This document shows, piece after piece, positions 3,216-26,778 of a stretch of DNA of 35,818 nucleotides. A program made the position numbers and the translations under genes. Under the pieces are notes generated by a model, which did not search any database, had not been told where the DNA came from, and was given only the letters and a program-made list of their open reading frames with translations. The number at the start of each line of letters is the position of its first letter. The stretch's first letter is position 1. The stretch comes from an uncultured Oscillospiraceae bacterium (GTDB lineage: Bacteria; Bacillota; Clostridia; Oscillospirales; Oscillospiraceae), in the NCBI GenBank assembly GCA_947624385.1, contig CANQJZ010000027.1:1-35818 (forward strand), in the 5' to 3' direction.

Positions 3216-3241
3216 ACGGTCGCAACGGTCACGGCGGCCGT

Positions 3242-3511: not shown

Positions 3512-3759
3512 CGCCGCGAACGCCGTCGTCGCCAGACTGCCAAAGGCAAGGATGACCGCCAGAAGCACCGCTATGCTCCGTTTTGCCATACGCATTCCAG
3601 TTACCTCCTTGCGCCAGGTTGAAAGTGTATTATACAACCAATTCTGGAAGCAACATGATAAAATGTCGCGCCAAATGTCAATGCCTTTGTCCTGAAATGC
3701 AGAAATTCCGACCTGAATTGCATCTTGACGGGCATTATCTGGCTTTATCGATCGCATTG

Positions 3760-11558: not shown

Positions 11559-12338
11559 ATGAAAGTGGTCATTCTGGCAGGCGGTTTGGGAACGCGATTC
11601 AGCGAGGAGAGCCAGTTCAAGCCCAAGCCCATGATCGAGATCGGCGGCATGCCGATCTTATGGCACATCATGAAGGAGTACTCCTATTACGGGTTCAACG
11701 AGTTCGTGATCTGCGCGGGCTATAAGCAGGACATCATCAAAAACTGGTTCGCCAACTACAACCTGCGCAAGAATGACATCACCTTCGACTTCCGCAGCGG
11801 CATCAACCAGCCCATGATCCACTACCAGCACAGCGAGCCATGGGTGGTCACCATCGTGGACACGGGCCTGCATACCATGACGGGCGGTCGTATCAAGCGG
11901 ATACAGCCGTACATCGGCGACGAGCCGTTCATGATGACCTACGGCGACGGCGTGTGCGACGTGGACATCGCCAAGCTGGTGGAGTTCCACAAGAGCCACG
12001 GCAAGCTGGCGACGCTGACGGCCGTGACGCTGGCGCAGGAAAAGGGCGTGCTGGTGCTGGAGAACAATACGGTCCGGGCCTTCCGGGAAAAGCGGCGGGC
12101 GGACGGCACCACCATCAACGCCGGTTATATGGTCCTCCAGCCGGAGATCTTCGACTATCTGGACGGGGACGACACGGTGTTTGAACAGGGTCCCATGGAG
12201 CGGCTTGCCGCCGAGGGACAGCTGATGAGCTACAGGCACAACGGGTATTGGCAGTGCATGGACACCAAGCACGAGCGGGATATCCTGGACGAGCTGTTGG
12301 CGCGGGGCATCGCGCCGTGGAAGAAATGGAGAGACTGA
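11559..12338 (+). CDS. rfbF: Glucose-1-phosphate cytidylyltransferase
   Basis: Makes CDP-D-glucose from glucose 1-phosphate and CTP, the entry step to CDP-3,6-dideoxyhexoses. The 259-aa protein begins MKVVILAGGLGTRFSEES and has KPKPMIEIGGMPILWHIM, the nucleotide and metal site YGDGVCDVD, and GYWQCMDTKHERD, all close to the RfbF/DdhA family. Length matches it. The upstream GAGGAC is a weak ribosome site. rfbG follows after 18 bases. Confidence 0.95.
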   Translation: MKVVILAGGLGTRFSEESQFKPKPMIEIGGMPILWHIMKEYSYYGFNEFVICAGYKQDIIKNWFANYNLRKNDITFDFRSGINQPMIHYQHSEPWVVTIVDTGLHTMTGGRIKRIQPYIGDEPFMMTYGDGVCDVDIAKLVEFHKSHGKLATLTAVTLAQEKGVLVLENNTVRAFREKRRADGTTINAGYMVLQPEIFDYLDGDDTVFEQGPMERLAAEGQLMSYRHNGYWQCMDTKHERDILDELLARGIAPWKKWRD

Positions 12339-12356
12339 GCCGGGGGGGTAAGCTTT

Positions 12357-13409
12357 ATGGACCTCTCGTTTTATCGAGACAGGCGGGTGCTGCTCACCGG
12401 CCATACCGGATTCAAGGGGTCATGGATGAGTCAAATACTCGTGGGCGCCGGCGCGCAGCTCACGGGCTATTCCCGTGGCTCGGAAAAAGAGGTCAGCCTG
12501 TTTGACCTGGCCGGTCTGCGGGGAAAGCTCGACCACGTGACGGGCGACGTGCGGGACCTGGAGCATTTGAAGCAGGTCTTCGCCGACACGCAGCCGGAGA
12601 TCGTCATCCATATGGCGGCACAGCCTATCGTCCGGGACAGCTATGCCGACCCGGTGTATACGTATGAGACGAACGTGATGGGCACGGTGAACGTGCTGGA
12701 ATGCGTGCGTCTGAATCCGTGCGTGAAGAGCGTGGTCAACGTGACCACGGACAAGGTATATCGGAACAACGAGTGGGTCTGGGGCTACCGGGAGAATGAG
12801 CCGTTGGATGGGTACGATCCCTATTCCAACAGCAAAAGCTGCTCGGAGCTCGTGACCCACAGTTATTGTTGCAGCCTTTTGTCCGACCGGGACATCGCGG
12901 TGTCTACGGCCCGGGCGGGCAACGTCATCGGCGGCGGGGACTTTGCCCACGACCGGATCATCCCGGACTGCGTGCGCTCGGTGATGGCCAATAAGCCGCT
13001 GGCGGTGCGCAATCCCCATTCCACCCGGCCTTACCAGCACGTGCTGGAGCCGGTGATGGCCTACCTGATGATCGCCGCCAAACAGATGGACGACAAGAGC
13101 CTCGCCGGGTGGTACAATGTGGGCCCGGACGAGTGCGACTGCGTGGACACGGGCCGGCTGGTGGAGCTGTTCGCCCAAAAGTGGGGCGAGGGCTTTGCCT
13201 GGGAAGATAAGGCGGAGCCGGGCGCGCCCCATGAGGCGAACTTTTTGAAGCTGGACTGCGCAAAGGTCAAGAGCGTGTTCGGCTGGCATCCCCGGTGGCA
13301 TATCGACCAGGCGGTGGAAAAGACCGTGGCGTGGACCCGGACCTGGCTGGCCGGGGGCGACGTAGCCGGAGAGATGGACCGGCAGATCAGAGAATATCTG
13401 GAGGGATAA
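12357..13409 (+). CDS. rfbG: CDP-glucose 4,6-dehydratase
   Basis: Short-chain dehydrogenase-type enzyme of 350 aa that turns CDP-glucose into CDP-4-keto-6-deoxyglucose. Visible are the NAD motif TGHTGFKGSWM, HMAAQPIVRDSYADPVYTYE, the catalytic TTDKVY, and YDPYSNSKSCSE with the YxxxK pair. ARAGNVIGGGDFAHDRIIPD is typical of the RfbG/DdhB group. It sits between rfbF and rfbH with gaps of 18 and 4 bases. Confidence 0.95.
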   Translation: MDLSFYRDRRVLLTGHTGFKGSWMSQILVGAGAQLTGYSRGSEKEVSLFDLAGLRGKLDHVTGDVRDLEHLKQVFADTQPEIVIHMAAQPIVRDSYADPVYTYETNVMGTVNVLECVRLNPCVKSVVNVTTDKVYRNNEWVWGYRENEPLDGYDPYSNSKSCSELVTHSYCCSLLSDRDIAVSTARAGNVIGGGDFAHDRIIPDCVRSVMANKPLAVRNPHSTRPYQHVLEPVMAYLMIAAKQMDDKSLAGWYNVGPDECDCVDTGRLVELFAQKWGEGFAWEDKAEPGAPHEANFLKLDCAKVKSVFGWHPRWHIDQAVEKTVAWTRTWLAGGDVAGEMDRQIREYLEG

Positions 13410-13413
13410 CGAT

Positions 13414-14760
13414 ATGGGACCCTGGAAGACGGAGGCCGAGGCGCGGGAACAGATCAAGGCGCTGGTGGCGGAATATTACCACGACTTCAAGCAGCCGAAG
13501 CCCTTTGCGCCCGGCGACAGGATCAACTACGCCGGACGGGTATTCGACGAAAAAGAGATGTGCGCCCTGACGGACGCGACGCTGGATTTCTGGCTGACCA
13601 CGGGCCGGTTCGCGGAGCAGTTCGAGCGGGAGTTCGCCCAGTGGATCGGCGTGAAATACGCCCACCTGGTCAACAGCGGCTCCTCCGCCAATCTCATCGC
13701 CTTTTCCGCCCTGACGGCTCCGGAGCTGGGCCGGCGGCAGATCAAAAAGGGCGACGAGGTCATCACCGTGGCCTGCGGCTTTCCCACCACGGTGGCGCCG
13801 GTGCTGCAATACGGCGCGGTGCCCGTATTCGTGGACGTGACGGTGCCTCAGTATAACATCGACGTGACAAAGCTGGAGGCCGCCCTGAGCGAGAAGACGA
13901 AGGCGGTCATGGTGGCCCATACCCTGGGCAATCCCTTCGACCTGGCGGCGGCGAAGGCCTTCTGCGACGCGCATGAGCTGTGGCTGGTGGAGGACAACTG
14001 CGACGCGCTGGGCTCTCAGTACACCATCGGCGGCGAGACCCGCTATACCGGCGCCTGGGGCGACATCGGCACCAGCAGCTTCTATCCGCCTCACCACCTG
14101 ACCATGGGCGAGGGCGGGTGCGTGTACACCAACGACCCGCTGCTGAGCAAGCTCATATTGTCCTATCGGGACTGGGGACGGGACTGCGTGTGCCCCTCCG
14201 GGCGGGACAATTTCTGCGGTCACCGGTTCGACGGCCAGCACGGCGAACTGCCCGCGGGCTATGACCACAAGTATGTGTACAGCCATTTGGGGTATAACCT
14301 GAAGGTGACGGATATGCAGGCGGCCATCGGGTGCGAGCAGCTGAAAAAGTTCCCGTCGTTCATCGAGCGGCGGCGGCACAACTGGCAGCGGCTGTATGAC
14401 GCGCTGGCGGCCAGTCCCGCGGCGGACAAGCTCATATTGCCGGAGCCGGCGGCGAACAGCCGTCCCAGCTGGTTCGGGTTCCTGCTGTCCCTGCGGCCGG
14501 AGTGCGGCCTGGACAGGAGCGAGGTCATCCGGAAGATCGAGGCCGACCATGTGCAGACCAGGCTGCTGTTTTCCGGCAACATCGTCCGCCAGCCCTGCTT
14601 TGACGAGCTGCGGGGTACGGGCGCGTACCGCGTGGCGGGAGAGCTGAAAAACACGGACTTCATCGTGGCCAACACCTTCTGGGTGGGCGTGTACCCCGGC
14701 ATGACCGACGAGATGATCGACTATATGGCGGCCGCCATCGAGAAAGCCGTCAGGGGATGA
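13414..14760 (+). CDS. rfbH: CDP-4-keto-6-deoxyglucose 3-dehydrase (E1)
   Basis: PMP- and [2Fe-2S]-dependent dehydrase of 448 aa that removes the C3 hydroxyl, committing the sugar to the 3,6-dideoxy series. The aminotransferase fold is clear (VNSGSSANLIAF, EDNCDALGS). The usual PLP-binding lysine is replaced by histidine in SFYPPHHLTMGEGG, the diagnostic E1 feature. Cysteines in RDCVCPSGRDNFCGH fit the iron-sulfur ligands. The E3 reductase that normally feeds E1 electrons (RfbI/AscD) is not in the window. Confidence 0.95.
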   Translation: MGPWKTEAEAREQIKALVAEYYHDFKQPKPFAPGDRINYAGRVFDEKEMCALTDATLDFWLTTGRFAEQFEREFAQWIGVKYAHLVNSGSSANLIAFSALTAPELGRRQIKKGDEVITVACGFPTTVAPVLQYGAVPVFVDVTVPQYNIDVTKLEAALSEKTKAVMVAHTLGNPFDLAAAKAFCDAHELWLVEDNCDALGSQYTIGGETRYTGAWGDIGTSSFYPPHHLTMGEGGCVYTNDPLLSKLILSYRDWGRDCVCPSGRDNFCGHRFDGQHGELPAGYDHKYVYSHLGYNLKVTDMQAAIGCEQLKKFPSFIERRRHNWQRLYDALAASPAADKLILPEPAANSRPSWFGFLLSLRPECGLDRSEVIRKIEADHVQTRLLFSGNIVRQPCFDELRGTGAYRVAGELKNTDFIVANTFWVGVYPGMTDEMIDYMAAAIEKAVRG

Positions 14761-14770
14761 GGACTTGTCC

Positions 14771-16021
14771 ATGAAGGAGAAGATATTGGGCATATGCCGC
14801 AATAAGGCGGCCCTGCTGGTGATCGTGCTGGTCATCGGCTTTATGGGCATGGGCGCCAGCATGATCATGACCCGCGGAGCAAGCAGCTCCAATGTCCTGT
14901 TTCAGGTGAATAACGATACCTTCATGGACTTTTTCAACAGCATATGCGACGTTCAGCAGGAAAACCCCTATCGGGACAGGGGCGTCATTTATCCGGCGCT
15001 TTCATACGTATTCTATACAGCAGTGAAGCACTGTCTCCCGGTCAAGCTCATGAAGACGGACTCTGTTACGATAGCCCAGTCACAAAACGGGAAAATGCTG
15101 CTGTTGTACTTTACGCTGGCGGGCACGCTCATCCTGCTGTGCGGGCTGATATCCCTGGGGAAGAGCTATACGCTGCCGATAGCGCTGTTGGTATCCGCGC
15201 CATTTCTCTATTTGGCGGAGCGCGGGAATATGCTGCTGATAACGGTCGCGTGCGTGGCCATTTTCCTGGCGTTTTACAGGGACGAGCGCTGGTTTGTGCG
15301 GGAGATCGCCTATGTCTCCCTGGCGGTCGCGGCGGCCACAAAGATCTACCCGGCGCTTTTCGGGCTCCTGCTGCTGCGGGAGAAGGACTGGAAGGGCACG
15401 GTCCACTGCGTTATCTGGGGAGCGCTTTTGTTTTTTGTTCCCTTCTTTAAGTGGGGCGGGTTCGAGGATATCGGCATCATGCTGAATAATATCCTGCATA
15501 ACGATGTGCATACCGGCTCGAAGATGGGGTTCGGAGAAAAGCTGAATTTCAGCAATACGTTCCGGATGCTGGACGCCTATACGGGCTGGAGCGGGTTCGG
15601 CGTGCTGGCGAAACATTCGTCCATTATCTGTATCGTCCTGCTGGCGCCCGCCATGCTGGTCTGTAAAGAAAGATGGAAAACCGTGCTGGCGATCGCCGTT
15701 TTCAGCGTCGCCTTCCCGGATTTCAGCTACATGTATTCGTCCGTTCTTTTGCTGCCGGCCGCGGTCATGTTCGCAAGAGCGAAGCTGCAAAAGAGCGATT
15801 ACGTGTATTTATTCTTATTCGCTGTCCTGCTTGTTCCGTGGGTGTTCGACCTGTCCAGCGTGCTTCCGCGGCTGGCCGCCCTGGACGCAAGTCAGTATTA
15901 TCATCTGTCGGTAGATTCCCTGTTTGGAAGCTTCGCGCTGCTCGGGCTTGCGGTCTGCCTGGAGATCGACGCTGTGGTGCGGATCGTCCGGAGGATCAGA
16001 GGCCGGAGAGCCGCCGGCTGA
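14771..16021 (+). CDS. Polytopic membrane protein, probable GT87-like glycosyltransferase
   Basis: The 416-aa protein has about nine to ten hydrophobic segments. The start is ATG 14771 with a TGAGGA site ending 7 bases before; a TTG six bases upstream is less likely. An acidic first outer loop (NNDTFMDFFNSICD) and a later AAATKIYPALFGLLLL segment resemble the GT87 (DUF2029) family of GT-C enzymes, which use polyprenyl-phosphate sugars outside the membrane. Assignment is by topology and these two blocks only; a Wzy-like polymerase is an alternative. It directly follows rfbH. Confidence 0.6.
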   Translation: MKEKILGICRNKAALLVIVLVIGFMGMGASMIMTRGASSSNVLFQVNNDTFMDFFNSICDVQQENPYRDRGVIYPALSYVFYTAVKHCLPVKLMKTDSVTIAQSQNGKMLLLYFTLAGTLILLCGLISLGKSYTLPIALLVSAPFLYLAERGNMLLITVACVAIFLAFYRDERWFVREIAYVSLAVAAATKIYPALFGLLLLREKDWKGTVHCVIWGALLFFVPFFKWGGFEDIGIMLNNILHNDVHTGSKMGFGEKLNFSNTFRMLDAYTGWSGFGVLAKHSSIICIVLLAPAMLVCKERWKTVLAIAVFSVAFPDFSYMYSSVLLLPAAVMFARAKLQKSDYVYLFLFAVLLVPWVFDLSSVLPRLAALDASQYYHLSVDSLFGSFALLGLAVCLEIDAVVRIVRRIRGRRAAG

Positions 16022-16053
16022 GCGGACGGGAAAACGATCGGGAGCGGTAGATC

Positions 16054-16515
16054 ATGTTGGATAAATTGAAGGACCTGCGCGGCGGCGGCCTGTGGAATAC
16101 GCTGGTGCAGTTCATCAAATTTGGCCTGGTGGGCGTGTCCAATACGGCCATATCCTACGGCATCGAGATGCTGTGCTATTACGTGCTGCTGGTCAACGCG
16201 CCGATGAGCGAGGGCGTGCGGGTCGTCGTGACATCGGCGCTGGCGTTCATCGTGAGCGTGACCAACTCGTATTATTGGAACAGCCGCTATGTCTTCAAAA
16301 GCGGCGGCGAGAAAAAGACGCTTTCCCAGCATCTGCGGGCCTACGCGAAGACGGTGGCCAGCTACGGCGTGACGGGTCTGCTGCTGGCCCCGGCGCTGAA
16401 GCTGCTGCTGGGCCGGTGGGGCGTCCCCTATTGGGCGGCAAGCCTGGGCTCGCTGGTGGTAACGATCCCGCTGAACTTTGTGCTCAATAAGTTTTGGGCC
16501 TTCCGGAAGAATTGA
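16054..16515 (+). CDS. GtrA-like family membrane protein
   Basis: Small membrane protein of 153 aa with four predicted helices. The opening LVQFIKFGLVGVSNTAISYGI and the central FIVSVTNSYYWNSRYVFK are GtrA family hallmarks, and the end LNFVLNKFWAFR is also typical. GtrA-like proteins are thought to flip polyprenyl-phosphate sugars across the membrane. A GtrB-like synthase (25828) and GT-C enzymes (14771, 16537) occur in the same cluster, which supports this role. Confidence 0.88.
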   Translation: MLDKLKDLRGGGLWNTLVQFIKFGLVGVSNTAISYGIEMLCYYVLLVNAPMSEGVRVVVTSALAFIVSVTNSYYWNSRYVFKSGGEKKTLSQHLRAYAKTVASYGVTGLLLAPALKLLLGRWGVPYWAASLGSLVVTIPLNFVLNKFWAFRKN

Positions 16516-16536
16516 AGTCAGAAAAAGGTGTGTGCG

Positions 16537-18570
16537 ATGGGCAGAGAGATAAGGCTGCCGGAGAATAAAAAGCGCGGGCTGCAGGGCTGGGTGTTGTCGC
16601 TCCTGCTGATGGCCGCGGTGGTGGCTTATTCTCTGCTGTATTTTAACAACACATATCCCATCAGCGAGGGCTGGGGCGTCAACTACGCGGAGCTGATGTT
16701 CCGCGGGAAGTTCCCGTACCGGGACTTTTATTATTATCTGCCGCCGCTGAACCTGTGGATCGATGAACTGTTTTGGAAGCTGTCTTTCGGCTCGCTTTTG
16801 GCGTTCCGGATCTGGTATCTGGCCCAGCGGCTGGTGCTATGGGTGCTTATCTTCCGGCTGCTCCGCCGGTTTTTTGACCAGTACTATGCCTTTTTGGCCT
16901 GCGTGCTGGCGGCCATCATCAGCACGGGCGACGTGTACGATCTGTTCGGGGATTACAACCAGACCACGGACCTTGTGGCCGTGCTGCTGTCTTACTGCGC
17001 GGCGGATTTCGCGATGGCGGAGACAAAGCGGAAGAAGCTGGCGTATATGGGGCTGGCCGGCGTGACGCTGGGCGCCGCCTTTTTGAACAAGCAGACGATC
17101 TTTGTCGCCTGCTTTATCGTGTTTTTCCTGGCGCTCACCGCGCTGTGCATCCTGAAAAAGGACAAGGGCTATTGGGGATACTGTCTGGCCGTGGCGGGGG
17201 GGTTATTACTGCCGGTGGCCGGTACGGCCATATATCTGGCGGCCAACGGGGCGCTGGTCCCCTTCATTGAGCAGGTCTATGTCAATGTGGACGGCAAGGG
17301 CACTCTGTTCCACATTTTGGTCTATTCCATCATAAGCCGGCTGTGGAAGCCGGCTGTCTGGAGCGCGATCTTCCTGTTGTTTGGACTGGTGACGCTGGAG
17401 GACGCGAGAAACGATGTAGACAGAAAGAAAGCCGCACTGGCCGCCGGGCTGCTGCTGTGCGGTCTGGTGCTTTGCGTCTATAGTCAGTTCGCTCCGCAGA
17501 TCACGGACTTTGCGCGCATCGTCTCCCACCACCGCTCGGCGATGGCGTCGGCGCTGCTGTGCTTTGTCCTGTTCGCGGCATCGCTGTACGGCGCTCGCCG
17601 GGATCGGGAGAGACTGTCCCGGGAGACGATCGTCCGGCTGGAAACGCTGGCCGTCCTGGCGGGAACGATGGCCATGATCGGCATCAACCTGTACACCTCC
17701 GTTTTTGCGAAGGAGCTGTACTCTGAGAGCGCCATTTTCCATATGGGAGACGGCGCCCTGAGCTCCTTTGTCCTGTTGGCGTCCATCGCGCTTATAGCGG
17801 CATGGTTTTATAAGTGGCGACGCGCCGATGTGGAAGATAAACCGCGGTACGAGGCCATGCTGTTCGTGATATGCGGCGGCTTTTGCCTGGAATATGCCGG
17901 CGTGATGGCCGCGGGCGATCAGGGCTTTGCGTGCCGAGCGCTGAAAATACTGCTGCCGTTTATGGTCTGCGCGCTCCTGTCTGTCAGGATGAGACACCCG
18001 ATCGTATCCCGGGCGCTCAAGGGCGGGGCCATCGCGGTGTGCATCGTGCTGGCCACGGCGTGCGTGGCCGAGAAGATCGCGTGCTCTTACGAATGGTGGG
18101 GTTCCCATATGGCGCCGCGGGAGGAAAAGGTTTATTCCGTGGATATCCCGGCTATGAAGGGCATCAAGGTCTCGGCGGACCAGAAGGAGCTGTACGAGAC
18201 GGTAACGGCTATCATCGAGGAGAATACGGACGAGGACGCGGTGATCTGGGGCTACCCCCATATCAAGCTGTTCAACGTCCTGACGGACCGGTACAACATG
18301 GACACGTTCGTGCCGGTGCTGTTTTACGATGTGGTATCGGACGTCTATGTGGAGCAGGAGAGGGACCTGCTGGCGGAAAATTTGCCGGACGTGGTCATTT
18401 GGGAGCAGATCGACGGGGTCCTTGAGGCCCATGAGAACGTATACCGGCATGGAGAGCCGTTGAAGCAGCGGGAGATCGAGGCGCTGTTTGCCCAGGTCCT
18501 GCCGGAAAAATATGAACTGAAAGCCCAGGTGGGCAACGTGTCCGTCTACTTGTTAAAGGACCATGCCTAG
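16537..18570 (+). CDS. Polytopic glycosyltransferase, GT39/ArnT-like
   Basis: The 677-aa membrane protein starts at ATG 16537, eight bases after AAAAAGG; a GTG nine bases upstream is in frame. After the first helix comes an outer loop with the acidic YPISEGWGVNYAELMFRGKFPYRDFYYYLPPLN, resembling the first loop of protein-mannosyltransferase-like GT-C enzymes. About eleven further hydrophobic segments follow. A soluble C-terminal part of about 150 residues (NMDTFVPVLFYDVVSD...) lies outside the membrane. Likely role: extracytoplasmic sugar transfer from a polyprenyl-phosphate donor. Sugar and acceptor unknown. Confidence 0.68.
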   Translation: MGREIRLPENKKRGLQGWVLSLLLMAAVVAYSLLYFNNTYPISEGWGVNYAELMFRGKFPYRDFYYYLPPLNLWIDELFWKLSFGSLLAFRIWYLAQRLVLWVLIFRLLRRFFDQYYAFLACVLAAIISTGDVYDLFGDYNQTTDLVAVLLSYCAADFAMAETKRKKLAYMGLAGVTLGAAFLNKQTIFVACFIVFFLALTALCILKKDKGYWGYCLAVAGGLLLPVAGTAIYLAANGALVPFIEQVYVNVDGKGTLFHILVYSIISRLWKPAVWSAIFLLFGLVTLEDARNDVDRKKAALAAGLLLCGLVLCVYSQFAPQITDFARIVSHHRSAMASALLCFVLFAASLYGARRDRERLSRETIVRLETLAVLAGTMAMIGINLYTSVFAKELYSESAIFHMGDGALSSFVLLASIALIAAWFYKWRRADVEDKPRYEAMLFVICGGFCLEYAGVMAAGDQGFACRALKILLPFMVCALLSVRMRHPIVSRALKGGAIAVCIVLATACVAEKIACSYEWWGSHMAPREEKVYSVDIPAMKGIKVSADQKELYETVTAIIEENTDEDAVIWGYPHIKLFNVLTDRYNMDTFVPVLFYDVVSDVYVEQERDLLAENLPDVVIWEQIDGVLEAHENVYRHGEPLKQREIEALFAQVLPEKYELKAQVGNVSVYLLKDHA

Positions 18571-18621
18571 GACAGAGCCGCGACAAAAAATGGAAGTTCG
18601 TGTTGGAGGAAGGGTGATAGA

Positions 18622-20259
18622 ATGAGTACGAATATCAAGCTGCTGGACTGTACGCTCCGAGACGGGGGCTATATAAACGACTGGAAATTCGGCCGGGATA
18701 ATTTGAGCAGCATATACGAGCGCCTGGCGGATTCCGGCGTGGATGTGGTCGAGATCGGCTTTCTGGACGACCGGCGGCCTTTCGACGCGGACCGCAGCAT
18801 CATGCCGGATACGTCCTGCGTGGAGAAGATCTACGGCGCGGCCCGCAAGCGCCCGCCCATGACGGTGGGGATGATCGACTACGGCACATGCGACATCTCG
18901 AATCTGCAGCCATGCAGCGAGAGCATGCTCGACGGCATCCGGGTCATCTTCAAAAAGCACCGTATGTACGAGGCCATGGATTACTGCGCCCAGGTGAAAA
19001 AGCTGGGCTATCAGGTGTTCGCCCAGCTTGTGTCCATCACCAGCTACAACGACGACGAATTGCGGGAGGTCATCGGCCTTGCCAATCAGGTAAAGCCCTG
19101 CACGCTGTCCATCGTGGACACCTACGGCCTGCTGGACCCGACCAGGGTGCGCCATATCGCCCATATCATGGACGAGCATCTGGACCGGGACATCGCCATC
19201 GGCTTCCATGGGCACAATAACAAGCAGCTGGCCTTCGCCAATACGCTCACGTTCCTGGAGGAAGTGGCGCAAAAGCGGGACGTGGTGGCCGACGGGTCCC
19301 TGCACGGCATGGGCAAGAGCGCCGGCAACGCGCCGGTGGAGCTGCTGGCGGAGCAGATGAATGATAAGTACGGCAAAGCGTATAATATCGGGCCGCTGCT
19401 GGAGGCCATCGACGAGAGCGTTCTGGATATTTACAAAAAGACACCCTGGGGCTATAAGATCTATTTCTATCTCTGCGCCCACAACGAGGTCCATCCGGAC
19501 TACGTCAAGCAGATGCAGAGCAAACCAAACCTGTCTGTGAGCGGGCTGAACGAGATATTGGGTCAGATCGAGCCGGAGGAACAAAAGCTCCTGTACAGCA
19601 AGGACGCGGGGGAGCGGGCATGGTCCGCCTATGAGCGGGAACACTATGACGACGAGGAGAATATGCGCCGCCTGCGTCAGGCGCTGCTGGACAAGCCCGC
19701 TATCCTGCTCCTGGGACCGGGCCGGAGCATTTCTCTGCAGCGCGACCGGGTGCTGGCGTATATCCAGCGGGAAAAGCCCGTGATCGTGTCCATCAACTAT
19801 ATCCCGGACGAGCTGCCGGTGGACTATGTTTTTGCCACCAAGCCCAACCGGTATCTGGAAATGGCCAATAAGCTGCTGACCCGGACGGACCGGCCCGTCC
19901 AGATCATCGCCACTTCCAATCTCACGCCGCGGGACACGGCCTTTTCCTATGTGTTCACCCGTGCGCCGCTGCTGGAGGAAAAAGAGAGCATCGCCGACAA
20001 TTCGCTGCTGATGCTTTTGCGCATTTTGAAGCGCTGCGGGGTGAAGGAACTGTCCCTGGCCGGGGTGGACGGATATTCCGACCGAGACGAGAACTATTTC
20101 GACCCGAAGATGGAGTACACGTTCATCCGTGAGCAGGCGATGAATCTGAACCGCCACGTGCGCGATGTGCTCCAAAGCGAATATGCCGATATGAAAATGA
20201 ATTTCCTGACATTCTCCCGTTATACTGACGTGCAGGAGAGCTATGACGCGGCGCTTTGA
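18622..20259 (+). CDS. HMGL-type aldolase fused to an unknown C-terminal domain
   Basis: 545 aa. Residues 1 to about 300 form a DRE-TIM (HMG-CoA lyase/4-hydroxy-2-oxovalerate aldolase-like) barrel. LLDCTLRDGG at 7-16 carries the R13-D14 catalytic pair, and GFHGHNN near 195 carries the metal-binding histidines. This class makes or breaks carbon bonds using pyruvate-like substrates. From about residue 355 a second domain begins with LLLGPGRS, a glycine-rich Rossmann-like loop, and continues to ATSNLTPRDTAF and LAGVDGYSD. It faintly recalls DUF115/MptE-like domains, but I cannot assign it. The start has GGAGG about 12 bases upstream. The ThDP enzyme follows after 34 bases and a HAD phosphatase overlaps that, suggesting a three-step unit. 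Confidence 0.82.
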   Translation: MSTNIKLLDCTLRDGGYINDWKFGRDNLSSIYERLADSGVDVVEIGFLDDRRPFDADRSIMPDTSCVEKIYGAARKRPPMTVGMIDYGTCDISNLQPCSESMLDGIRVIFKKHRMYEAMDYCAQVKKLGYQVFAQLVSITSYNDDELREVIGLANQVKPCTLSIVDTYGLLDPTRVRHIAHIMDEHLDRDIAIGFHGHNNKQLAFANTLTFLEEVAQKRDVVADGSLHGMGKSAGNAPVELLAEQMNDKYGKAYNIGPLLEAIDESVLDIYKKTPWGYKIYFYLCAHNEVHPDYVKQMQSKPNLSVSGLNEILGQIEPEEQKLLYSKDAGERAWSAYEREHYDDEENMRRLRQALLDKPAILLLGPGRSISLQRDRVLAYIQREKPVIVSINYIPDELPVDYVFATKPNRYLEMANKLLTRTDRPVQIIATSNLTPRDTAFSYVFTRAPLLEEKESIADNSLLMLLRILKRCGVKELSLAGVDGYSDRDENYFDPKMEYTFIREQAMNLNRHVRDVLQSEYADMKMNFLTFSRYTDVQESYDAAL

Positions 20260-20293
20260 GCGGGCGTGACAGAACGGAAGGAGGCGCGTATAT

Positions 20294-22105
20294 ATGATGA
20301 TGCGGCTGGCCGATTATATTGCTGACTTTCTGGTGGAGCATGGCGTGACGCACAATTTTATGGTCACCGGCGGCGGCGCCATGCAGTTGGACGACGCGCT
20401 GGGCCACCATGAGGGCCTTAAAAATATCTTCAACCACAACGAACAGGGCTGTGCCATCGCCGCGGAGGCCTACGCACGGGTCACGGGGCGCATTGCCAGC
20501 GTGTGCGTGACCAGCGGCCCGGGGGGAACGAATGCGATAACCGGCGTCATGGGCGGGTGGCTTGACAGCATCCCCATGTTCGTCCTTTCCGGCCAGGTGA
20601 AGCGGGAGACGACGCTCTGGGCGGTGCCGGAGCTGCGCCTGCGCCAGCTTGGCGACCAGGAATTTGATATCACCCACTCCGTCGCGAACATGACCAAATA
20701 CTGCGTCATGGTCACCGAGCCGGAAAAAATAGCCTATCACCTGGAAAAGGCCTGGTACCTGGCCACGACGGGCCGTCCCGGTCCGGTCTGGCTGGACATC
20801 CCCCTGGATGTGCAGGGCGCGAAGATCGACGCCGACGCGCTAGCGCACTTTGACCCCGAGCAGGAGCATGCTCTGGCAAAAACGCCGTCTGTGTCGCCTG
20901 ACACGGCGGACGCCATCCTGGAAAAGATCGCCGCGGCGAAAGCGCCGCTGGTTTTCGCCGGGTACGGCGTGCGTCTTGCCCAGGCGGACGAGCTTCTTCT
21001 GCAGCTGGTGGAAAAGCTGCACATTCCCGTGGCGGTGGCCTGGAACTCCGGCGATTTAGTGGCCTATGACAACCCCTATTACGCCGGTTCTCCCAGCCGG
21101 GAGGGTACCCGTGGCAGCAGCTTCATCGTGCAAAACTGCGACCTGCTGCTGGTGCTGGGCAGCCGCATGAACATACGGACCATCACCTATAACAAACATG
21201 ACTTCGCCAGAAATGCCTATAAGATCATGGTGGACATCGACGAGCAGGAGCTGAAAAAGCCCACCTTCGTGCCGGAACTGCCCGTCCACGCCGACGTGCG
21301 GGAAATGCTGGAGGCGCTTCTGGCGCGGCCTTACGCGCCGCAGGCGGCCCATGAGCCGTGGGTGCGCTGGTGCCGCATGATGGTGGAAAAATACCCGGCG
21401 GTGCTGCCAGAGTATCATAAAGGCGCGGGGGAGCCGCTCAACCCATACGTGTTTGTGGACACACTGTTTTCCAAAATGCGTGCGGACGACGTGCTGACCC
21501 TTGGAAACGGCAGCGCGTGCGTCATGACATTCCAGGCGTGCAAGATCAAGCAGGGCCAGCGCATGTTCACAAACTCCGGCTGCGCGGCCATGGGCTATGG
21601 CCTGCCCGCGGCCCTGGGCGCCGCCGTGGCGCGGCAGGGGGAGAACGGCCGTGTCCTTTGCCTGGACGGAGACGGCAGTCTCATGATGAACGTGCAGGAA
21701 CTGGCCACGATCGCCTATAACAAGCTCGGCGTGAAGCTGTTCGTGCTGAACAACAACGGCTATCACTCCATTCGCCAGACCCAGCGGAACCTGTTCAAAC
21801 CCCCGCTGATCGGCCTGGACCCGGACACCGGCGTGGGCTTCCCGGACTTTGAGAAATTGGCGCAGGCGTTTGGGTTTTCCTACTACTGCATCGACGAGGA
21901 GCCTGGCGCCGCGGAGACGGTCGAAAAGGCTCTGGCGACGCCGGGTCCCGTGCTGTGCAATGTGATCGTGGACCCGGAGCAGAACTTTGTGCCGAAGCTG
22001 TCGTCCAAGGTGCTGCCCGACGGGCAGATCGTCTCGCCGTCCATGGACGATATGTTCCCCTTCCTGCCGCGGGAGGAATACGAGTCGAACCGCTATATGA
22101 GATGA
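20294..22105 (+). CDS. ThDP-dependent acetolactate synthase-like enzyme (candidate sugar carboligase)
   Basis: 603 aa with the three-domain layout of acetohydroxyacid synthases and relatives. HNEQGCAIAAEAYARV has the catalytic glutamate near residue 50, followed by SGPGGTNAITG. A middle domain includes LVLGSRMNIRT. The ThDP/Mg motif GDGSLMMN near 459 ends with NNNGY about 26 residues later. No regulatory subunit gene and no branched-chain amino acid genes are nearby. Within an rfbFGH cluster the closest functional model is YerE of Yersinia, which adds a two-carbon unit from pyruvate to a CDP-4-keto-3,6-dideoxy sugar. A sulfopyruvate or phosphonopyruvate decarboxylase-type role is an alternative. 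The start is the first of three ATG codons after AAGGAGG. Confidence 0.85.
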   Translation: MMMRLADYIADFLVEHGVTHNFMVTGGGAMQLDDALGHHEGLKNIFNHNEQGCAIAAEAYARVTGRIASVCVTSGPGGTNAITGVMGGWLDSIPMFVLSGQVKRETTLWAVPELRLRQLGDQEFDITHSVANMTKYCVMVTEPEKIAYHLEKAWYLATTGRPGPVWLDIPLDVQGAKIDADALAHFDPEQEHALAKTPSVSPDTADAILEKIAAAKAPLVFAGYGVRLAQADELLLQLVEKLHIPVAVAWNSGDLVAYDNPYYAGSPSREGTRGSSFIVQNCDLLLVLGSRMNIRTITYNKHDFARNAYKIMVDIDEQELKKPTFVPELPVHADVREMLEALLARPYAPQAAHEPWVRWCRMMVEKYPAVLPEYHKGAGEPLNPYVFVDTLFSKMRADDVLTLGNGSACVMTFQACKIKQGQRMFTNSGCAAMGYGLPAALGAAVARQGENGRVLCLDGDGSLMMNVQELATIAYNKLGVKLFVLNNNGYHSIRQTQRNLFKPPLIGLDPDTGVGFPDFEKLAQAFGFSYYCIDEEPGAAETVEKALATPGPVLCNVIVDPEQNFVPKLSSKVLPDGQIVSPSMDDMFPFLPREEYESNRYMR

Positions 22106-22755
22106 GAACGCTGGTCATATTCGATTTTGACGGTACGCTGGTCAATACGATAACGGACGTGGCGCTGTGCTTCAACGAGGCACTGCGCCAGTGCGGCTAT
22201 CCCACCCACCCGCTGGAGCGCTTTGGCCGCTTTGTGGGCGGCGATCTGGAGACGGTCGTGTCCCGCATGCTCCCGCCGGAGGAGCGCCGAGAGAGCGCGA
22301 TAGACGCCGTGAAAACCCTCTACCGTCAGCTATACCTGCAAAGCGAAAAGCCCAACACCAAGCCCTATCCCGGCGTTATGGAGCTTTTGCGGGAGATGAA
22401 AGCGCGGGGATATAAGCTGGCGGTCAACTCCAATAAGGGCCAGGTTTTGCTGGACGACATGGTGAATAAGATGTTCCCGACGGCGTTTTTTGACGCGGTC
22501 GTGGGCTATCAGGAGGGCAAACCCTCCAAGCCGGAACCGTACGGCGTGGACGAGATATGCCGCTTGTGCGGCTGCACCCGCGCTGACGCGGTCTATGTGG
22601 GGGACGGTGACAGCGATGTTGCCACCGCCGTCCGGGCGGAGATACCCTGTGTGTTCGTGACATGGGGGCAAGGCGCGAACAAAAAGCGGACGGAGCCAAA
22701 TGTTCTGGCGTGTGTGGACAGCGCGGAGGAACTGAAGCGGGTCCTGTTTTGCTGA
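22102..22755 (+). CDS. HAD-superfamily phosphatase (phosphoglycolate phosphatase-like)
   Basis: Hydrolase of 217 aa. Motif I is FDFDGTLVNT at residues 7-16 with the nucleophilic aspartate. The cap domain follows, then motif II VNSNKG, the motif III lysine in GKPSKPEPYGV, and motif IV VYVGDGDSDVATA. The start ATG overlaps the stop of the ThDP enzyme gene (ATGA), so the two are co-translated. This suggests its substrate is an intermediate of the sugar pathway rather than phosphoglycolate. The HAD subfamily is certain; the substrate is inferred. Confidence 0.9.
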   Translation: MRTLVIFDFDGTLVNTITDVALCFNEALRQCGYPTHPLERFGRFVGGDLETVVSRMLPPEERRESAIDAVKTLYRQLYLQSEKPNTKPYPGVMELLREMKARGYKLAVNSNKGQVLLDDMVNKMFPTAFFDAVVGYQEGKPSKPEPYGVDEICRLCGCTRADAVYVGDGDSDVATAVRAEIPCVFVTWGQGANKKRTEPNVLACVDSAEELKRVLFC

Positions 22756-22801
22756 CTGGTTTTGAAATTAGCTGCGCCGCCGGCAGGAAGGACAGAGCAC
22801 A

Positions 22802-23926
22802 GTGGAGAACAAAAGAGCTGATATATTGAATGTCATACGCACAGCCGCGCTTATGATGGTCTTTCTGCTCCATGGGCGCGGATGGGTACCTGGACCTTCT
22901 TTGACCGCTGGGCCCTTTTTGATCTTTACGACTTTCCCTGCGTGGGCAGGGGTATGGATCCTACTGTTCCTTTCGAGCTATCTTCTCGGAATGAATTTTC
23001 TGTCCGGGAAATATGTCCTTGTGGAGGATGGCCGTTTCAGTTTTCGCGGACTGTGGCGGTTCTACCGCAGCCGGTTTTTGAGGGTCGCGCCGCTATACTA
23101 CTTTTACTGTTTTATGTTTGAACTGCTGAGCGGCAGCCGTTTTTTGTTGAACGGCGGATGGATCACGGTGAAAATATTGACGTTCACGTTCAACGGCAAC
23201 GGCGGCATCGACGGCATCGGTCATTTGTGGTACTTGTCTACCGCTATGCAGATTTATTTGCTGGCGCCTTTCGCGTTTCTGCTGGTGCGGCGGTTCCGCT
23301 CTCCGGGAGCATGTCTGACGGCATTTTTTGCTTGCCTTTTGCTTGGACTTGGCGCCAGGTACAGCCTATATACCGCCGGAGCCGATTGGTATACCTGGAT
23401 ATATACATTCTCGTTGGCCAACCTGGATTTTGTGCTGTGCGGTCTGCTCCTTGCGCGTATCAGCCAGATGCTGTATACGGCGCGGGCCGGGGGGGTATTT
23501 ACAAAGATCTTTTCCTCCCTGGCGGCTTTCTTTCTGATCGGCTACAACTGCTATATCTACTATTACGGCGGAAGCGTCAATTTTTTCCTGTACCAAATCG
23601 TTCTGCCCTCGATATACATCCTCTGCTGCTCTCTTTTGATCATCGCCTGGCTGCCGAGGCGTGACTCCGTGCCGGTCTATGGCGGGATATGGGGGTGTGT
23701 CAACGGATTCGCAAAATACTCATACGCTTTCTATATATTGCATATATCGGTCTTGCTTTATGTGGCCGATCTCATCACAAAGCTGTCTCTTGTAAGCGGG
23801 CATGCAGTCGTCAACTATTTCGTGTATTTTGGGATCAGCTTTGCGCTGACATTGGGTTTAGCGGTCATGATGACGAATGTAGGCCGGGGACGCAGGACAA
23901 GAGGAAGGGGCGGGAGTATTTCGTGA
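22802..23926 (+). CDS. Acyltransferase 3 family membrane O-acyltransferase
   Basis: Polytopic protein of 374 aa with about ten helices. The start is GTG with GGAAGG upstream. The first helix carries the catalytic-type histidine (VFLLHGRGW), followed by YRSRFLRVAPLYYFY with the conserved arginines, as in OafA-like enzymes that O-acetylate surface sugars. IGHLWYLSTAMQIYLLAPF is also typical. The region is visibly richer in A and T than flanking glycan genes, hinting at separate acquisition. The stop overlaps the next start (TGATG). Confidence 0.85.
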   Translation: MENKRADILNVIRTAALMMVFLLHGRGWVPGPSLTAGPFLIFTTFPAWAGVWILLFLSSYLLGMNFLSGKYVLVEDGRFSFRGLWRFYRSRFLRVAPLYYFYCFMFELLSGSRFLLNGGWITVKILTFTFNGNGGIDGIGHLWYLSTAMQIYLLAPFAFLLVRRFRSPGACLTAFFACLLLGLGARYSLYTAGADWYTWIYTFSLANLDFVLCGLLLARISQMLYTARAGGVFTKIFSSLAAFFLIGYNCYIYYYGGSVNFFLYQIVLPSIYILCCSLLIIAWLPRRDSVPVYGGIWGCVNGFAKYSYAFYILHISVLLYVADLITKLSLVSGHAVVNYFVYFGISFALTLGLAVMMTNVGRGRRTRGRGGSIS

Positions 23927-24813
23927 TGAAAAAGCTCTTGTGCATATGGCTCGTTTTTCTGTTTTGCGCCGCGCCGGCATATGCCGCTTCGGAACCGATG
24001 CCGTTTGCCGGGGAGGGGACAAAAGCCGCGCCCTATGTCGTATCGTCCGCGGAGGACCTTACCGCCCTTGCCGAGCTGGTCAACAGCGGAGAGCACTTTG
24101 AAGATACGTTCTTTTTGCAGAAGGCGGACATCGACCTGGCGGGGATCGAATGGACACCGATCGGCGAGTTTGAGACAGAGAACCATTTCGACGGGCGCTA
24201 CGACGGCGACGGTCACTGTATAGAGAACATGACGATAACGCAGGGGGGCAACTGCGCTCTCTTTGGTCAGCTGGGCGGGACCGTGATGAACCTGGGAATC
24301 GAGAGCGGAGAGATCAACGGCGCCTGCGTCGGCAGCATAAGCAGTCATGCCGGGACGATCAATGCGCGGATCATTAACTGCTATAACAAGGCGTCTATCC
24401 AAGGTTTCCGCGCTGGTGGGATCGCAGACAACTTCAACGGCAAGATCGTCGGCTGCTGGAACGCCGGCGCGCTGAGCGGGGACCAAACCGGCCAGATCGT
24501 CTCCTATGGGGCCACATACGTGGGCTACTGTTATGAAGATGTCCCTTCGGCAGAAGAGCTGAACCGCCATCTGGGCTCTGTCGCGGTCAGAGCCAATGTG
24601 CGCTGCAAGGATCTGAATATGTGGATAGAAACGGAAGACGGTCCCGCGTTTTCCACGGAAAAGAGGGGCTTCGCTATTCGTGACATTCCTGCGGTATTCG
24701 TGGTCAGACTGCCATTGATCATCCCGGCTGTGCTCGCGCTGAGCGTATCCGCCTGCATGATCGCGGCCGTCGTTGGGGCCGGGCGGCAGAGACGCAGAGA
24801 GAAGACAGTATAG
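23926..24813 (+). CDS. Secreted, membrane-anchored GLUG-like repeat protein
   Basis: 295 aa. A signal peptide (MKKLLCIWLVFLFCAAPAYA) precedes SAEDLTALAELVNSG and KADIDLAGIEWTPIG. GLUG-like turns follow: GDGHCIENMTI, FGQLGGTVMNLGIESGEI, ACVGSISSHAG and AGGIADNFNGKIVGCWNAG. One C-terminal helix near residues 260-282 and a basic tail (RQRRREKTV) anchor it without an LPXTG motif. GLUG-type domains occur in surface proteins and are usually much larger. The start overlaps the acyltransferase stop by one base, so the two are coupled; it may be an outer-face partner of the modification machinery. Function unknown. Confidence 0.75.
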   Translation: MKKLLCIWLVFLFCAAPAYAASEPMPFAGEGTKAAPYVVSSAEDLTALAELVNSGEHFEDTFFLQKADIDLAGIEWTPIGEFETENHFDGRYDGDGHCIENMTITQGGNCALFGQLGGTVMNLGIESGEINGACVGSISSHAGTINARIINCYNKASIQGFRAGGIADNFNGKIVGCWNAGALSGDQTGQIVSYGATYVGYCYEDVPSAEELNRHLGSVAVRANVRCKDLNMWIETEDGPAFSTEKRGFAIRDIPAVFVVRLPLIIPAVLALSVSACMIAAVVGAGRQRRREKTV

Positions 24814-24866
24814 GGAACGTTTTTTCGCATCGGAAGATATGATCACTGACAGGAGGACGATACTTT

Positions 24867-25811
24867 ATGCCAGACAAGCTGCGCGAGATCAAGACTGCTG
24901 TGATCACCGGCCCCACGGGGGCCATTGGCACGGCGCTGATTCGCCGTATGGCCGAAGAAGACGTACAGGTCTATGCCGTTGTCCGGCCGGACAGCCGGCG
25001 TCTGGCGGCTATACCGGCGCCCCCGAACGTACACGTGGTGAAGCTGGACGTGTCGGAGCTTTCCCGGCTGCCGGAGCTTATTCCCGGCGGGGCGGACGCG
25101 TTTTATCACTTTGCCTGGGGCAGCACCGTGGGCGCGGGCAGGAATGACATGCCCGTGCAGATACAGAACATCCGCTGGACCATCGAGGCGGCGCGGACCG
25201 CGGCGGCCCTGGGCTGCCAGGTGTTCATCGGCTCGGGCAGTCAGGCGGAGTACGGTCGGGTAGACGGCGTTCTGACGCCGGAGACGGCGTGCTTCCCGGA
25301 AAACGGCTACGGCATGGCCAAGCTCTGCGCCGGGCAGATGAGCCGGGTGGAGTGCGAAAAGCTGGGCATCGGCCATATCTGGACCCGGATACTCAGCGTG
25401 TACGGTCCGGGCGACGGGACCGGCAGCATGATATCCTCCGTGATACGCCAGCTTTTGGCCGGGGAAAAACCGGCGCTGACGGCGGGGGAGCAGGTCTGGG
25501 ACTATCTCTATTCCGAGGACGCGGCTATGGCGTTTTACCTGCTGGGTAAGCATGGGGTGAGCGGCAGGACTTATGTGCTGGGAAACGGTTCGTCCCGGCC
25601 TTTGAAGGAGTATATCGAAGTTTTGCGGGACGCCATCGACCCGGCGCTGGCCCTTGGTCTGGGCGAGGTACCTTACGGGCCCAGGCAGGTCATGCGCCTG
25701 CAGGCGGATATATCCGCGCTGACGGCCGACACGGGCTTTGCGCCCAGGTATACGTTTGAAGAGGGCATACGCCGCACGATCCAGTGGGCCAAAACGGCCG
25801 GGAAACAGTGA
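24867..25811 (+). CDS. NAD-dependent epimerase/dehydratase (extended SDR)
   Basis: 314 aa. The nucleotide loop TGPTGAIG is at residues 14-21, the catalytic serine lies in IGSGSQAEYG, and the Y-x-x-x-K pair is in YGMAK. RILSVYGPGDGTGSMI and AGEQVWDYLYSEDAA are standard for sugar-nucleotide SDRs. The order of motifs resembles CDP-abequose or paratose synthases and could equally fit a YerF-type side-chain reductase, so it is the best candidate for the final reduction of the RfbH product. Start supported by AGGAGG 11 bases upstream. Confidence 0.87.
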   Translation: MPDKLREIKTAVITGPTGAIGTALIRRMAEEDVQVYAVVRPDSRRLAAIPAPPNVHVVKLDVSELSRLPELIPGGADAFYHFAWGSTVGAGRNDMPVQIQNIRWTIEAARTAAALGCQVFIGSGSQAEYGRVDGVLTPETACFPENGYGMAKLCAGQMSRVECEKLGIGHIWTRILSVYGPGDGTGSMISSVIRQLLAGEKPALTAGEQVWDYLYSEDAAMAFYLLGKHGVSGRTYVLGNGSSRPLKEYIEVLRDAIDPALALGLGEVPYGPRQVMRLQADISALTADTGFAPRYTFEEGIRRTIQWAKTAGKQ

Positions 25812-25827: not shown

Positions 25828-26778
25828 ATGGAGAGCGCAAAAAAGACGATATCGGTGATGATCCCCTGCTACAACGAGGTGGAAAACGCACGGGCCATTT
25901 ACGAGGCCGTGCGGGACACGCTGAAAAAGGACTGCTCCGCCTACGATTACGAGATACTGTTCATCGACAACAAGTCCACCGACGGTACCCGTGACATCAT
26001 CCGGAAGATATGCGCCGAGGACAAGCATGTCAGGGCCATCTTCAACATGAAGAATTTCGGCCAGTTCAACAGCCCTGTCTACGGCATGATCCACACCAGC
26101 GGGGACTGCACCATCACCATGTGCGCGGACTTCCAGGACCCGGTGGAGCTGATACCCAAATTCGTGGAGAAGTGGGAGAGCGGCTATAAGATCGTCATCG
26201 GCCGGAAGACAAGGAGCAAGGAAAATTCCCTCATCTACTTTTTGCGGGGGTGCTATTACAAGCTCATCCGCAAGATGAGCTCCGTGGAGATGATCGAGCA
26301 GTTCACCGGCTTCGGGCTCTATGACAAGTGCTTCATCCAGACCCTGCGGGACCTGCGCGACCCCACCCCGTTCATCCGGGGCATCGTGGCCGAGCTGGGG
26401 CCGGAGCGGGCGGAGATCGAGTACGAACAGCCCCGCCGCCGGGCCGGGAAGACGCACAACAATTTCTTCACCCTCTTTGACGCCGCCATGCTCAGCTTCA
26501 CCAGCTACACAAAGTTCGGCATGCGTATAGCCGAGTTCCTCGGCTTTGGCATGTCCTTCGTCAGCTTCCTGGTGGCCATCGGCTTTTTGATCGCCAAGCT
26601 GATCGCCTGGAAAACCTTCGCCGCCGGGTACGCGCCCATCATCCTCGCGCTGGTCTTCCTGTCCGGCTTGCAGCTGGCCTTTCTGGGCTTTTTGGGCGAG
26701 TACGTCATGAGCATGAACACCCGCATCATGAACCGGCCCCTGGTGGTCGAGGAGGAGCGGCTCAATTTCGACGAATGA
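25828..26778 (+). CDS. GtrB/DPM1-like polyprenyl-phosphate glycosyltransferase (GT2)
   Basis: 316 aa. The GT-A domain shows VMIPCYNEVENA, FIDNKSTDGTRD and the DxD-like CADFQDP. Later blocks GFGLYDK and RRRAGKTHNNFF are typical of ArnC/GtrB enzymes. Two C-terminal helices (about residues 245-270 and 275-300) complete the architecture. The reaction moves a sugar from a nucleotide donor to undecaprenyl phosphate on the inner face. It is the last gene of the glycan run and forms a logical set with GtrA and the GT-C enzymes. ATG 25828 is chosen because a purine-rich AAAGGGGGAGAGG precedes it. Confidence 0.9.
   Translation: MESAKKTISVMIPCYNEVENARAIYEAVRDTLKKDCSAYDYEILFIDNKSTDGTRDIIRKICAEDKHVRAIFNMKNFGQFNSPVYGMIHTSGDCTITMCADFQDPVELIPKFVEKWESGYKIVIGRKTRSKENSLIYFLRGCYYKLIRKMSSVEMIEQFTGFGLYDKCFIQTLRDLRDPTPFIRGIVAELGPERAEIEYEQPRRRAGKTHNNFFTLFDAAMLSFTSYTKFGMRIAEFLGFGMSFVSFLVAIGFLIAKLIAWKTFAAGYAPIILALVFLSGLQLAFLGFLGEYVMSMNTRIMNRPLVVEEERLNFDE

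Follow-up and report, generated by a model that had tools for sequence, protein, structure and literature searches.

Predicted pathway to a C4-branched 3,6-dideoxyhexose with an aldolase-made donor in an uncultured Oscillospiraceae bacterium

The window analysed here is the whole of contig CANQJZ010000027.1 (35,818 nucleotides, GenBank assembly GCA_947624385.1), a 35.8-kb piece of the genome of an uncultured Oscillospiraceae bacterium (2.18 Mb, 65 contigs, 93.4% complete). It holds a polysaccharide gene cluster in which the RfbF, RfbG, and RfbH genes are followed by genes for an HMGL-family aldolase, a thiamine diphosphate (ThDP)-dependent enzyme, and a HAD phosphatase. A few O-antigens and mycobacterial glycolipids are known to contain branched sugars that YerE-like enzymes make. 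Judged from its genes, this gut bacterium probably builds a carbon-branched deoxy sugar for its cell-surface polysaccharide. We consider it fairly probable that it does so through a five-step pathway to a 3,6-dideoxyhexose branched at C4, with the donor of the branch made by the aldolase.

The features of the proposed pathway are as follows.

11559-12338, plus strand: RfbF, glucose-1-phosphate cytidylyltransferase (TIGR02623, 355.7 bits, cut-off 300.25)
12357-13409, plus strand: RfbG, CDP-glucose 4,6-dehydratase (TIGR02622, 431 bits, cut-off 278.45)
13414-14760, plus strand: RfbH, CDP-4-keto-6-deoxyglucose 3-dehydrase, E1 (NF011936, 704.5 bits, cut-off 423)
18622-19656, plus strand: HMGL/DmpG-fold pyruvate aldolase part (residues 1-345), putative maker of a 2-keto-3-deoxy acid
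19657-20259, plus strand: C-terminal part of the same protein (residues 346-545), sialyltransferase/Maf-like fold
20294-22105, plus strand: YerE-like ThDP carboligase, 603 amino acids, proposed branching enzyme (match to 8rph, trees, diagnostic residues)
22102-22755, plus strand: HAD phosphatase (PF13419), proposed to remove the phosphate of the aldolase product (gene overlapping that of the ThDP enzyme; HAD genes beside relatives)
24867-25811, plus strand: extended SDR (PF01370), proposed branch-ketone reductase in the role of YerF

In the first step, for which homology is strong, RfbF, RfbG, and RfbH would produce CDP-4-keto-3,6-dideoxy-D-glucose. The aldolase would then join pyruvate to an aldehyde, probably a phosphorylated one, giving a 4-hydroxy-2-oxo acid (a 2-keto-3-deoxy, or ulosonic, acid), from which the HAD phosphatase would remove the phosphate. 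In the fourth step the ThDP enzyme would decarboxylate the ulosonic acid and add the resulting acyl carbanion to the C4 ketone of the acceptor, leaving a tertiary alcohol and a branch of at least three carbons; the enzyme class for this step comes from the tree and residues given below, and the predicted donor parallels the use of 4-hydroxy-2-oxo acids by ErwE. Finally, the SDR may reduce the branch ketone, and GT2, GtrA, and GT-C enzymes may place the sugar on a wall polysaccharide. The expected sugar would be a 3,6-dideoxy-4-C-(1,3-dihydroxyalkyl)-hexose, of the erwiniose or caryophyllose type.

On the acceptor side, the RfbF, RfbG, and RfbH genes are contiguous (11559-14760) and each product scores above its curated cut-off. 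RfbH, aligned to the E1 enzyme 3bcx (511 bits), has a histidine in place of the pyridoxal phosphate lysine (FYPPHH) and keeps Cys196, Cys258, Cys260, and Cys268, which we take to be the Fe-S ligands. Because of these scores and E1 residues, CDP-4-keto-3,6-dideoxyglucose is the expected product, in line with a preliminary description of this DNA.

The ThDP protein has all three TPP domains, the catalytic glutamate (E50), and the canonical GDG-X25-N motif (GDG459-461, N487); a JanthE-like CDG motif was considered and rejected on account of this GDG. Its best solved relative by phmmer is JanthE (8rph, 419 bits), the best acetohydroxyacid synthase (AHAS) coming next with 252 bits. JanthE is called a YerE-like enzyme in the accessible parts of PMC12188165 and PMC12247030. 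In a tree of 118 sequences, the window protein, JanthE, and 88 others form one clade (support 0.964) that contains no AHAS reference, with E. coli IlvB and IlvI, a Bacillota IlvB, and the AHAS-like proteins of the order all outside it. This tree omits ThDP open reading frames (ORFs) shorter than 480 amino acids (L099, which is in two pieces, and L102) as well as ten ORFs not matching the ThDP query, and it holds two proteins twice (L014 = L043 and L015 = L044); L012, with one TGA, was left out of A1. With IQ-TREE and 38 sequences, the group with JanthE received support of 100/99, and the wider group stood apart from AHAS with 100/100.

Residues agree with the trees. Positions V121, Y297, and K567 are described as hot spots of JanthE in the accessible part of PMC12188165, and their columns were compared between the 90 clade members and 19 AHAS proteins (three named and 16 from the order). 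The V121 column has phenylalanine in all 19 AHAS proteins and in none of the clade members, the window having aspartate there. The Y297 column is aromatic in 90/90 clade members and a gap in 19/19 AHAS proteins, and the K567 column has lysine or arginine in 89/90 as against methionine in 19/19.

No second PF02776 match was found in the genome, nor were ketol-acid reductoisomerase (KARI) and dihydroxyacid dehydratase (DHAD, ILVD/EDD), at 93.4% completeness and with 14/14 in control genomes. KARI was absent from 18 of 41 family genomes searched, this one included, and its absence here therefore need not be an assembly gap. A plasmid search for a named YerE relative returned only seven records, all AHAS-like and 30.6-32.6% identical. 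By kinship and residues, then, the protein is of the YerE-like class, apart from AHAS. Branching of CDP-4-keto-3,6-dideoxyglucose by the cluster is supported, since the enzyme groups with JanthE and not with AHAS and the genome shows no other protein of the family, no KARI, and no DHAD. The preliminary description had named an extended SDR and an acetolactate synthase-like ThDP enzyme, the latter outside any amino acid biosynthesis context, and had taken a place of the ThDP protein among ordinary acetolactate synthases as one of the outcomes that would speak against its pathway; the domains and the genome-wide search agree with the former, and in the trees this outcome did not arise. As a separate observation, neither KARI nor DHAD nor any AHAS besides the YerE-like protein was found in G000, which makes it a likely auxotroph for branched-chain amino acids.

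The donor side depends on two genes that the preliminary description had missed. The aldolase gene (18622-20259) ends 34 bp upstream of the ThDP gene, and the HAD gene overlaps the ThDP gene by 4 bp. From RfbF through the acyltransferase that follows the HAD gene, intergenic gaps are -4 to 51 bp, making a single operon likely. The DmpG fold spans the whole aldolase length, and D14, H196, and H198, an Asp and HxH that we take to be metal ligands as in DmpG, are present in 25/25 ThDP-linked proteins and in 11/11 homologs linked to genes of the cytidine monophosphate (CMP) sugar type. Residue 86 is aspartate in 25/25 ThDP-linked copies versus 1/11 CMP-linked copies. For the C-terminal part of the protein only weak profile or Pfam matches were obtained (MptE-like, E 0.018 for one of 21; SteA, E 0.039; sialyltransferase 9c08, E 0.17). 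In a tree of the HMGL proteins, 18 ThDP-linked copies, including that of the window, form a clade (0.967) without any CMP-linked copy; of the seven remaining ThDP-linked copies, all outside this clade, L105 and L124 group with a CMP-linked copy.

From these genes, the donor is most likely a 2-keto-3-deoxy acid from the aldolase rather than pyruvate, and for this reason a longer branch of the erwiniose or caryophyllose type is expected. According to the accessible part of PMC12247030, ErwE (erwiniose, Pectobacterium) takes 4-hydroxy-functionalized 2-oxo acids in preference to pyruvate, with the same CDP-4-keto sugar as acceptor, and MMAR_2332 (caryophyllose, Mycobacterium marinum) is similar in its donors. 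The branch of caryophyllose is given as 1,3,4,5-tetrahydroxyhexyl in the accessible part of PMC5706390, as expected from a pyruvate aldol product. Our search of the open-licence PMC literature found no report of a caryophyllose or erwiniose aldolase, and a search outside which most subscription papers lay found none of an HMGL ulosonic acid route.

Gene neighborhoods were compared among YerE-like loci. From at least 589 relatives, the best 80 by their likeness to the window were retained, which makes counts over these 80 lean to Bacillota. Of 92 loci (L033-L124), L043 and L044 (below 300 bits) were excluded, leaving 90 YerE-like loci. Of these, 24 have an HMGL gene no farther than 3.5 kb away from the ThDP gene. 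The window's ThDP protein belongs to a subclade of 14 (support 0.863; an inner 10 at 1.0), 13 of which have HMGL upstream of the ThDP gene; the contig of the fourteenth (L053) begins inside the ThDP gene. Ten of these 13 have a HAD gene next to either the ThDP gene or the HMGL gene. HMGL presence is clustered on the tree: over the 73 loci flanked by 1.5 kb or more on both sides, seven changes account for it, where 1000 shuffles gave 19.7 on average and never fewer than 12. Because of confounding by kinship, no use was made of sites that correlate with HMGL presence.

Other donor-supply genes stand beside other members of the family. A NeuB-family protein (PF03102, 119-137 bits) is encoded within 3.7 kb in 11 of the 90 loci, none of which has HMGL; the count excludes the weaker NeuB-like ORFs of L040, L041, and L042 (49-64 bits). 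Ten of these 11 contigs, some of them short, have no CTP_transf_3 match, and in the other the match is 110 kb away. The NeuB-linked loci come from Proteobacteria, Acidobacteria, Verrucomicrobia, and others, and the HMGL-linked loci mostly from Bacillota. In L036 (9108-12729), the ThDP gene is directly followed by a 2-keto-3-deoxy-6-phosphogluconate (KDPG) aldolase gene (TIGR01182 and NF005119, over cut-off) and a gene like that for 2-keto-3-deoxygluconate (KDG) kinase; no glycan genes were recognized around the YerE-like gene there. That one enzyme family has three unrelated kinds of 2-keto-3-deoxy acid maker as neighbors is consistent with their sharing a role in donor supply.

These neighborhoods bear on the closest alternative, that the ThDP enzyme adds a two-carbon acetyl branch from pyruvate, as in yersiniose, and that the HMGL and HAD proteins serve another sugar of the same polysaccharide. 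RfbFGH, a YerE-like enzyme, and an SDR are all present in the window, and the simpler set of RfbFGH, ThDP, and SDR genes without HMGL occurs in other loci, seven of them named. Against this stand the HMGL gene upstream in 13 of 14 subclade members, the 4-bp overlap of the ThDP and HAD genes, and the occurrence of HMGL-ThDP pairs also where no RfbF, RfbG, or RfbH gene lies in the available stretch. Moreover, the cluster proteins scanned include no cytidylyltransferase of the CTP_transf_3 type by which a free ulosonic acid would be activated. A pyruvate-using YerE would need neither aldolase nor phosphatase, and a yersiniose branch is thus probably not supported; we consider this alternative unlikely. 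The yersiniose-like branching of the preliminary description holds as to a YerE-like enzyme encoded with RfbFGH and probably does not as to the pyruvate-derived two-carbon branch: going by the genes, its pathway class is right and the product is probably not yersiniose.

The proposal of an aldolase-made donor draws its strongest clue from HMGL paralogs elsewhere in the order, where 31 of 295 genomes have an HMGL match at 1e-30. Thirteen of 36 HMGL places were fetched (12 high-scoring ones without a close ThDP neighbor, and G236), a set that leaves out short, low-scoring proteins of about 106-130 bits. In 11 of the 12 loci without a close YerE-like neighbor, a CTP_transf_3-like gene (KdsB/NeuA-like) is directly beside HMGL, called by Pfam in four (L160, L163, L165, and L167) and by phmmer in the rest; the L160 cytidylyltransferase passes the KdsB cut-off. 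A HAD gene is in the same locus in eight of the 12, directly adjoining in four, and a polysialyltransferase-like gene occurs in eight. A KDG-kinase-like gene adjoins HMGL in L163. KdsA was found over cut-off in none of 13 HMGL genomes searched, 11 of which carry a fetched CMP-type locus, the other two being G122 and G082. This context and the lack of KdsA over cut-off suggest that the HMGL family most likely makes 2-keto-3-deoxy acids. The loci L160-L170, from genomes of the order, are in their own right candidates for a capsule pathway with an ulosonic acid made independently of phosphoenolpyruvate (PEP).

A broader reading, which we offer tentatively and hold to be somewhat doubtful as a whole, is that YerE-like enzymes are general couplers that decarboxylate whole ulosonic acids and join the sugar-like chain that is left to CDP-4-keto-3,6-dideoxyglucose, that their donors come from interchangeable unrelated makers (the HMGL aldolase, a NeuB-family synthase, and once KDPG aldolase), and that the HMGL-Maf-like fusion, as an ulosonic acid synthase of a new kind that works without PEP, also supplies CMP-activated sugars for the capsules of bacteria in which KdsA and NeuB are missing. 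The neighboring gene would then be a rule for predicting the donor of a YerE-like enzyme, and the HMGL aldolase may replace KdsA or NeuB in some capsule pathways. The cluster and its relatives may also offer natural carboligases for hydroxylated donors.

Several observations weigh against the proposed pathway or this broader reading. The aldolase scores 80.6 bits with the DmpG model TIGR03217, far below its cut-off of 286, and has Tyr17 at the site of the DmpG histidine after LRDG, which is presumably catalytic. The link of HAD genes to donor supply is modest: they occur in 10 of 26 well-flanked loci with HMGL or NeuB and in 5 of 41 without (p 0.017, uncorrected for kinship). Three HMGL-ThDP pairs (L047, L071, and L111) have no RfbF, RfbG, or RfbH gene in the available stretch, so the acceptor need not always be the CDP sugar. 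The kinship to YerE-like enzymes is drawn through JanthE, the sequences of YpYerE, ErwE, and MMAR_2332 standing outside the comparison, and the window enzyme retains Arg295, as AHAS does at that position. In L043 (277 bits, outside the clade of 90), the ThDP gene lies in an RfbF-RfbG-RfbH-GtrA-ThDP-SDR-GT2 locus and yet its product has phenylalanine in the 121 column, which is therefore no clean marker. Ten of the 13 HMGL genomes have a NeuB (PF03102) match above its lenient cut-off, at 30-38 bits; these matches fall on the same ORFs (284-378 amino acids) as sub-cut-off KdsA matches, presumably 3-deoxy-D-arabino-heptulosonate 7-phosphate synthases, and three genomes have neither. Separately, L043 may represent a second lineage of branching enzymes.

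A less probable alternative severs the two halves of the cluster: RfbFGH would lead to abequose or paratose, 3,6-dideoxyhexoses without a branch that the SDR would make, and the HMGL, HAD, and ThDP proteins would make an unrelated small molecule. The SDR gene is 2.8 kb from the window's ThDP gene, and none of the RfbF, RfbG, and RfbH genes is present in 17 of 54 YerE-like loci with 7 kb of flank on both sides. On the other hand, at least one of the three is present in the remaining 37, from several phyla, and all three in 28, a co-occurrence known for yersiniose and erwiniose according to the accessible part of PMC12247030; this alternative is quite improbable. An AHAS beside an isopropylmalate synthase, as in ilv-leu operons, was rejected as highly improbable: ilvB and leuA are often neighbors and AHAS models are the best NCBIfam matches of the ThDP protein, but those listed stay below cut-off (PRK08978, 330 bits versus 738; TIGR00118, 324 versus 538), as does the isopropylmalate synthase model for the HMGL protein (56.9 versus 517), KARI and DHAD are missing, trees and residues are contrary, and in G036 a YerE-like gene coexists with a separate AHAS-like gene near KARI.

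The proposed branching pathway is a variant of known YerE-type branching, in bacteria where such genes are common. With the YerE/YerF system for yersiniose A of Yersinia pseudotuberculosis, likened here by gene set and description and not by YerE or YerF sequence, it shares an RfbFGH-type acceptor supply, a YerE-like ThDP enzyme, and a candidate reductase; the SDR is proposed to hold the YerF role from its gene company, and 32 of 73 loci have an SDR gene at most 3.5 kb from the ThDP gene. It differs in the aldolase and phosphatase of the operon, the Bacillota host, and the predicted non-pyruvate donor. JanthE, the closest solved structure by sequence, is in the same clade and shares Lys567, the aromatic residue 297, and C-terminal 'DG..VSP..D..P' features, whereas it has CDG for the window's GDG and Val and Pro for Asp121 and Arg295. 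The aldolase resembles the putative aldolase BVU_2661 (3dxi) and DmpG-type 4-hydroxy-2-oxovalerate aldolases in fold and metal-site pattern; unlike these, it has the tyrosine noted above and an extra sialyltransferase/Maf-like domain, and no acylating aldehyde dehydrogenase was found among the cluster proteins scanned.

The preliminary description had expected a branched octose to be unusual in a Firmicute. The genes are in fact common: among the 80 best relatives, listed by how closely they resemble the window, 39 have record titles naming Bacillota lineages, and of the order's 295 genomes, 11 (this one included) have a match of at least 364 bits. No report of yersiniose or branched sugars in Bacillota was found in a search outside which most subscription papers lay. 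To judge from this cluster and its relatives, branched sugars would be made by many Bacillota, in some cases with longer polyhydroxy branches.

In the window, the cluster runs in the order LCP protein, initiating sugar transferase, UDP-galactopyranose mutase, RfbF, RfbG, RfbH, GT87, GtrA, PMT_2, HMGL aldolase, ThDP enzyme, HAD, acyltransferase, a protein with a signal-peptide-like start, SDR, and GT2. The remaining genes after RfbF, among which the listing of the preliminary description omitted GtrA, the GT-C enzymes, the acyltransferase, and GT2, are these.

14765-16021, plus strand: GT87 membrane glycosyltransferase (PF09594, 30.2 bits)
16054-16515, plus strand: GtrA-type membrane protein, putative lipid-sugar flippase (PF04138)
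16528-18570, plus strand: PMT_2-type GT-C membrane glycosyltransferase (PF13231)
22802-23926, plus strand: acyltransferase-3, probable sugar O-acyltransferase (PF01757)
23926-24813, plus strand: protein with a signal-peptide-like start, without a Pfam family (counterpart in L045)
25828-26778, plus strand: GT2 (PF00535), perhaps an ArnC/PgfS-like enzyme that transfers sugars to polyprenyl phosphate

The GT2 protein scores 173 bits with the PgfS model (cut-off 500), and perhaps it would load the sugar onto undecaprenyl phosphate. L045, an uncultured Oscillospiraceae metagenome-assembled genome, has a ThDP protein 92% identical to that of the window, the nearest named match among the matches listed, and follows the window's order for its aldolase, HAD, acyltransferase, secreted protein, and SDR. 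Bacterium C-53 (L051) likewise carries RfbFGH, HMGL, HAD, ThDP, and SDR genes.

Two further observations concern other genes. A gene like that for 3-dehydroquinate synthase is present in the YerE-like loci L055-L058, L061, L066, L099, L101, L105, L108, L112, L118, and L124, the L118 copy being TIGR04425 (AroB-related cyclizing phospholyase, over cut-off). These loci possibly make carbocyclic branched sugars; L057 is from Bradyrhizobium, and a link to bradyrhizose is a guess. On the minus strand of the window, positions 650-3757 hold long repetitive ORFs (GGVVTA.GG and TVEPEVTAEPEV repeats) that resemble surface proteins.

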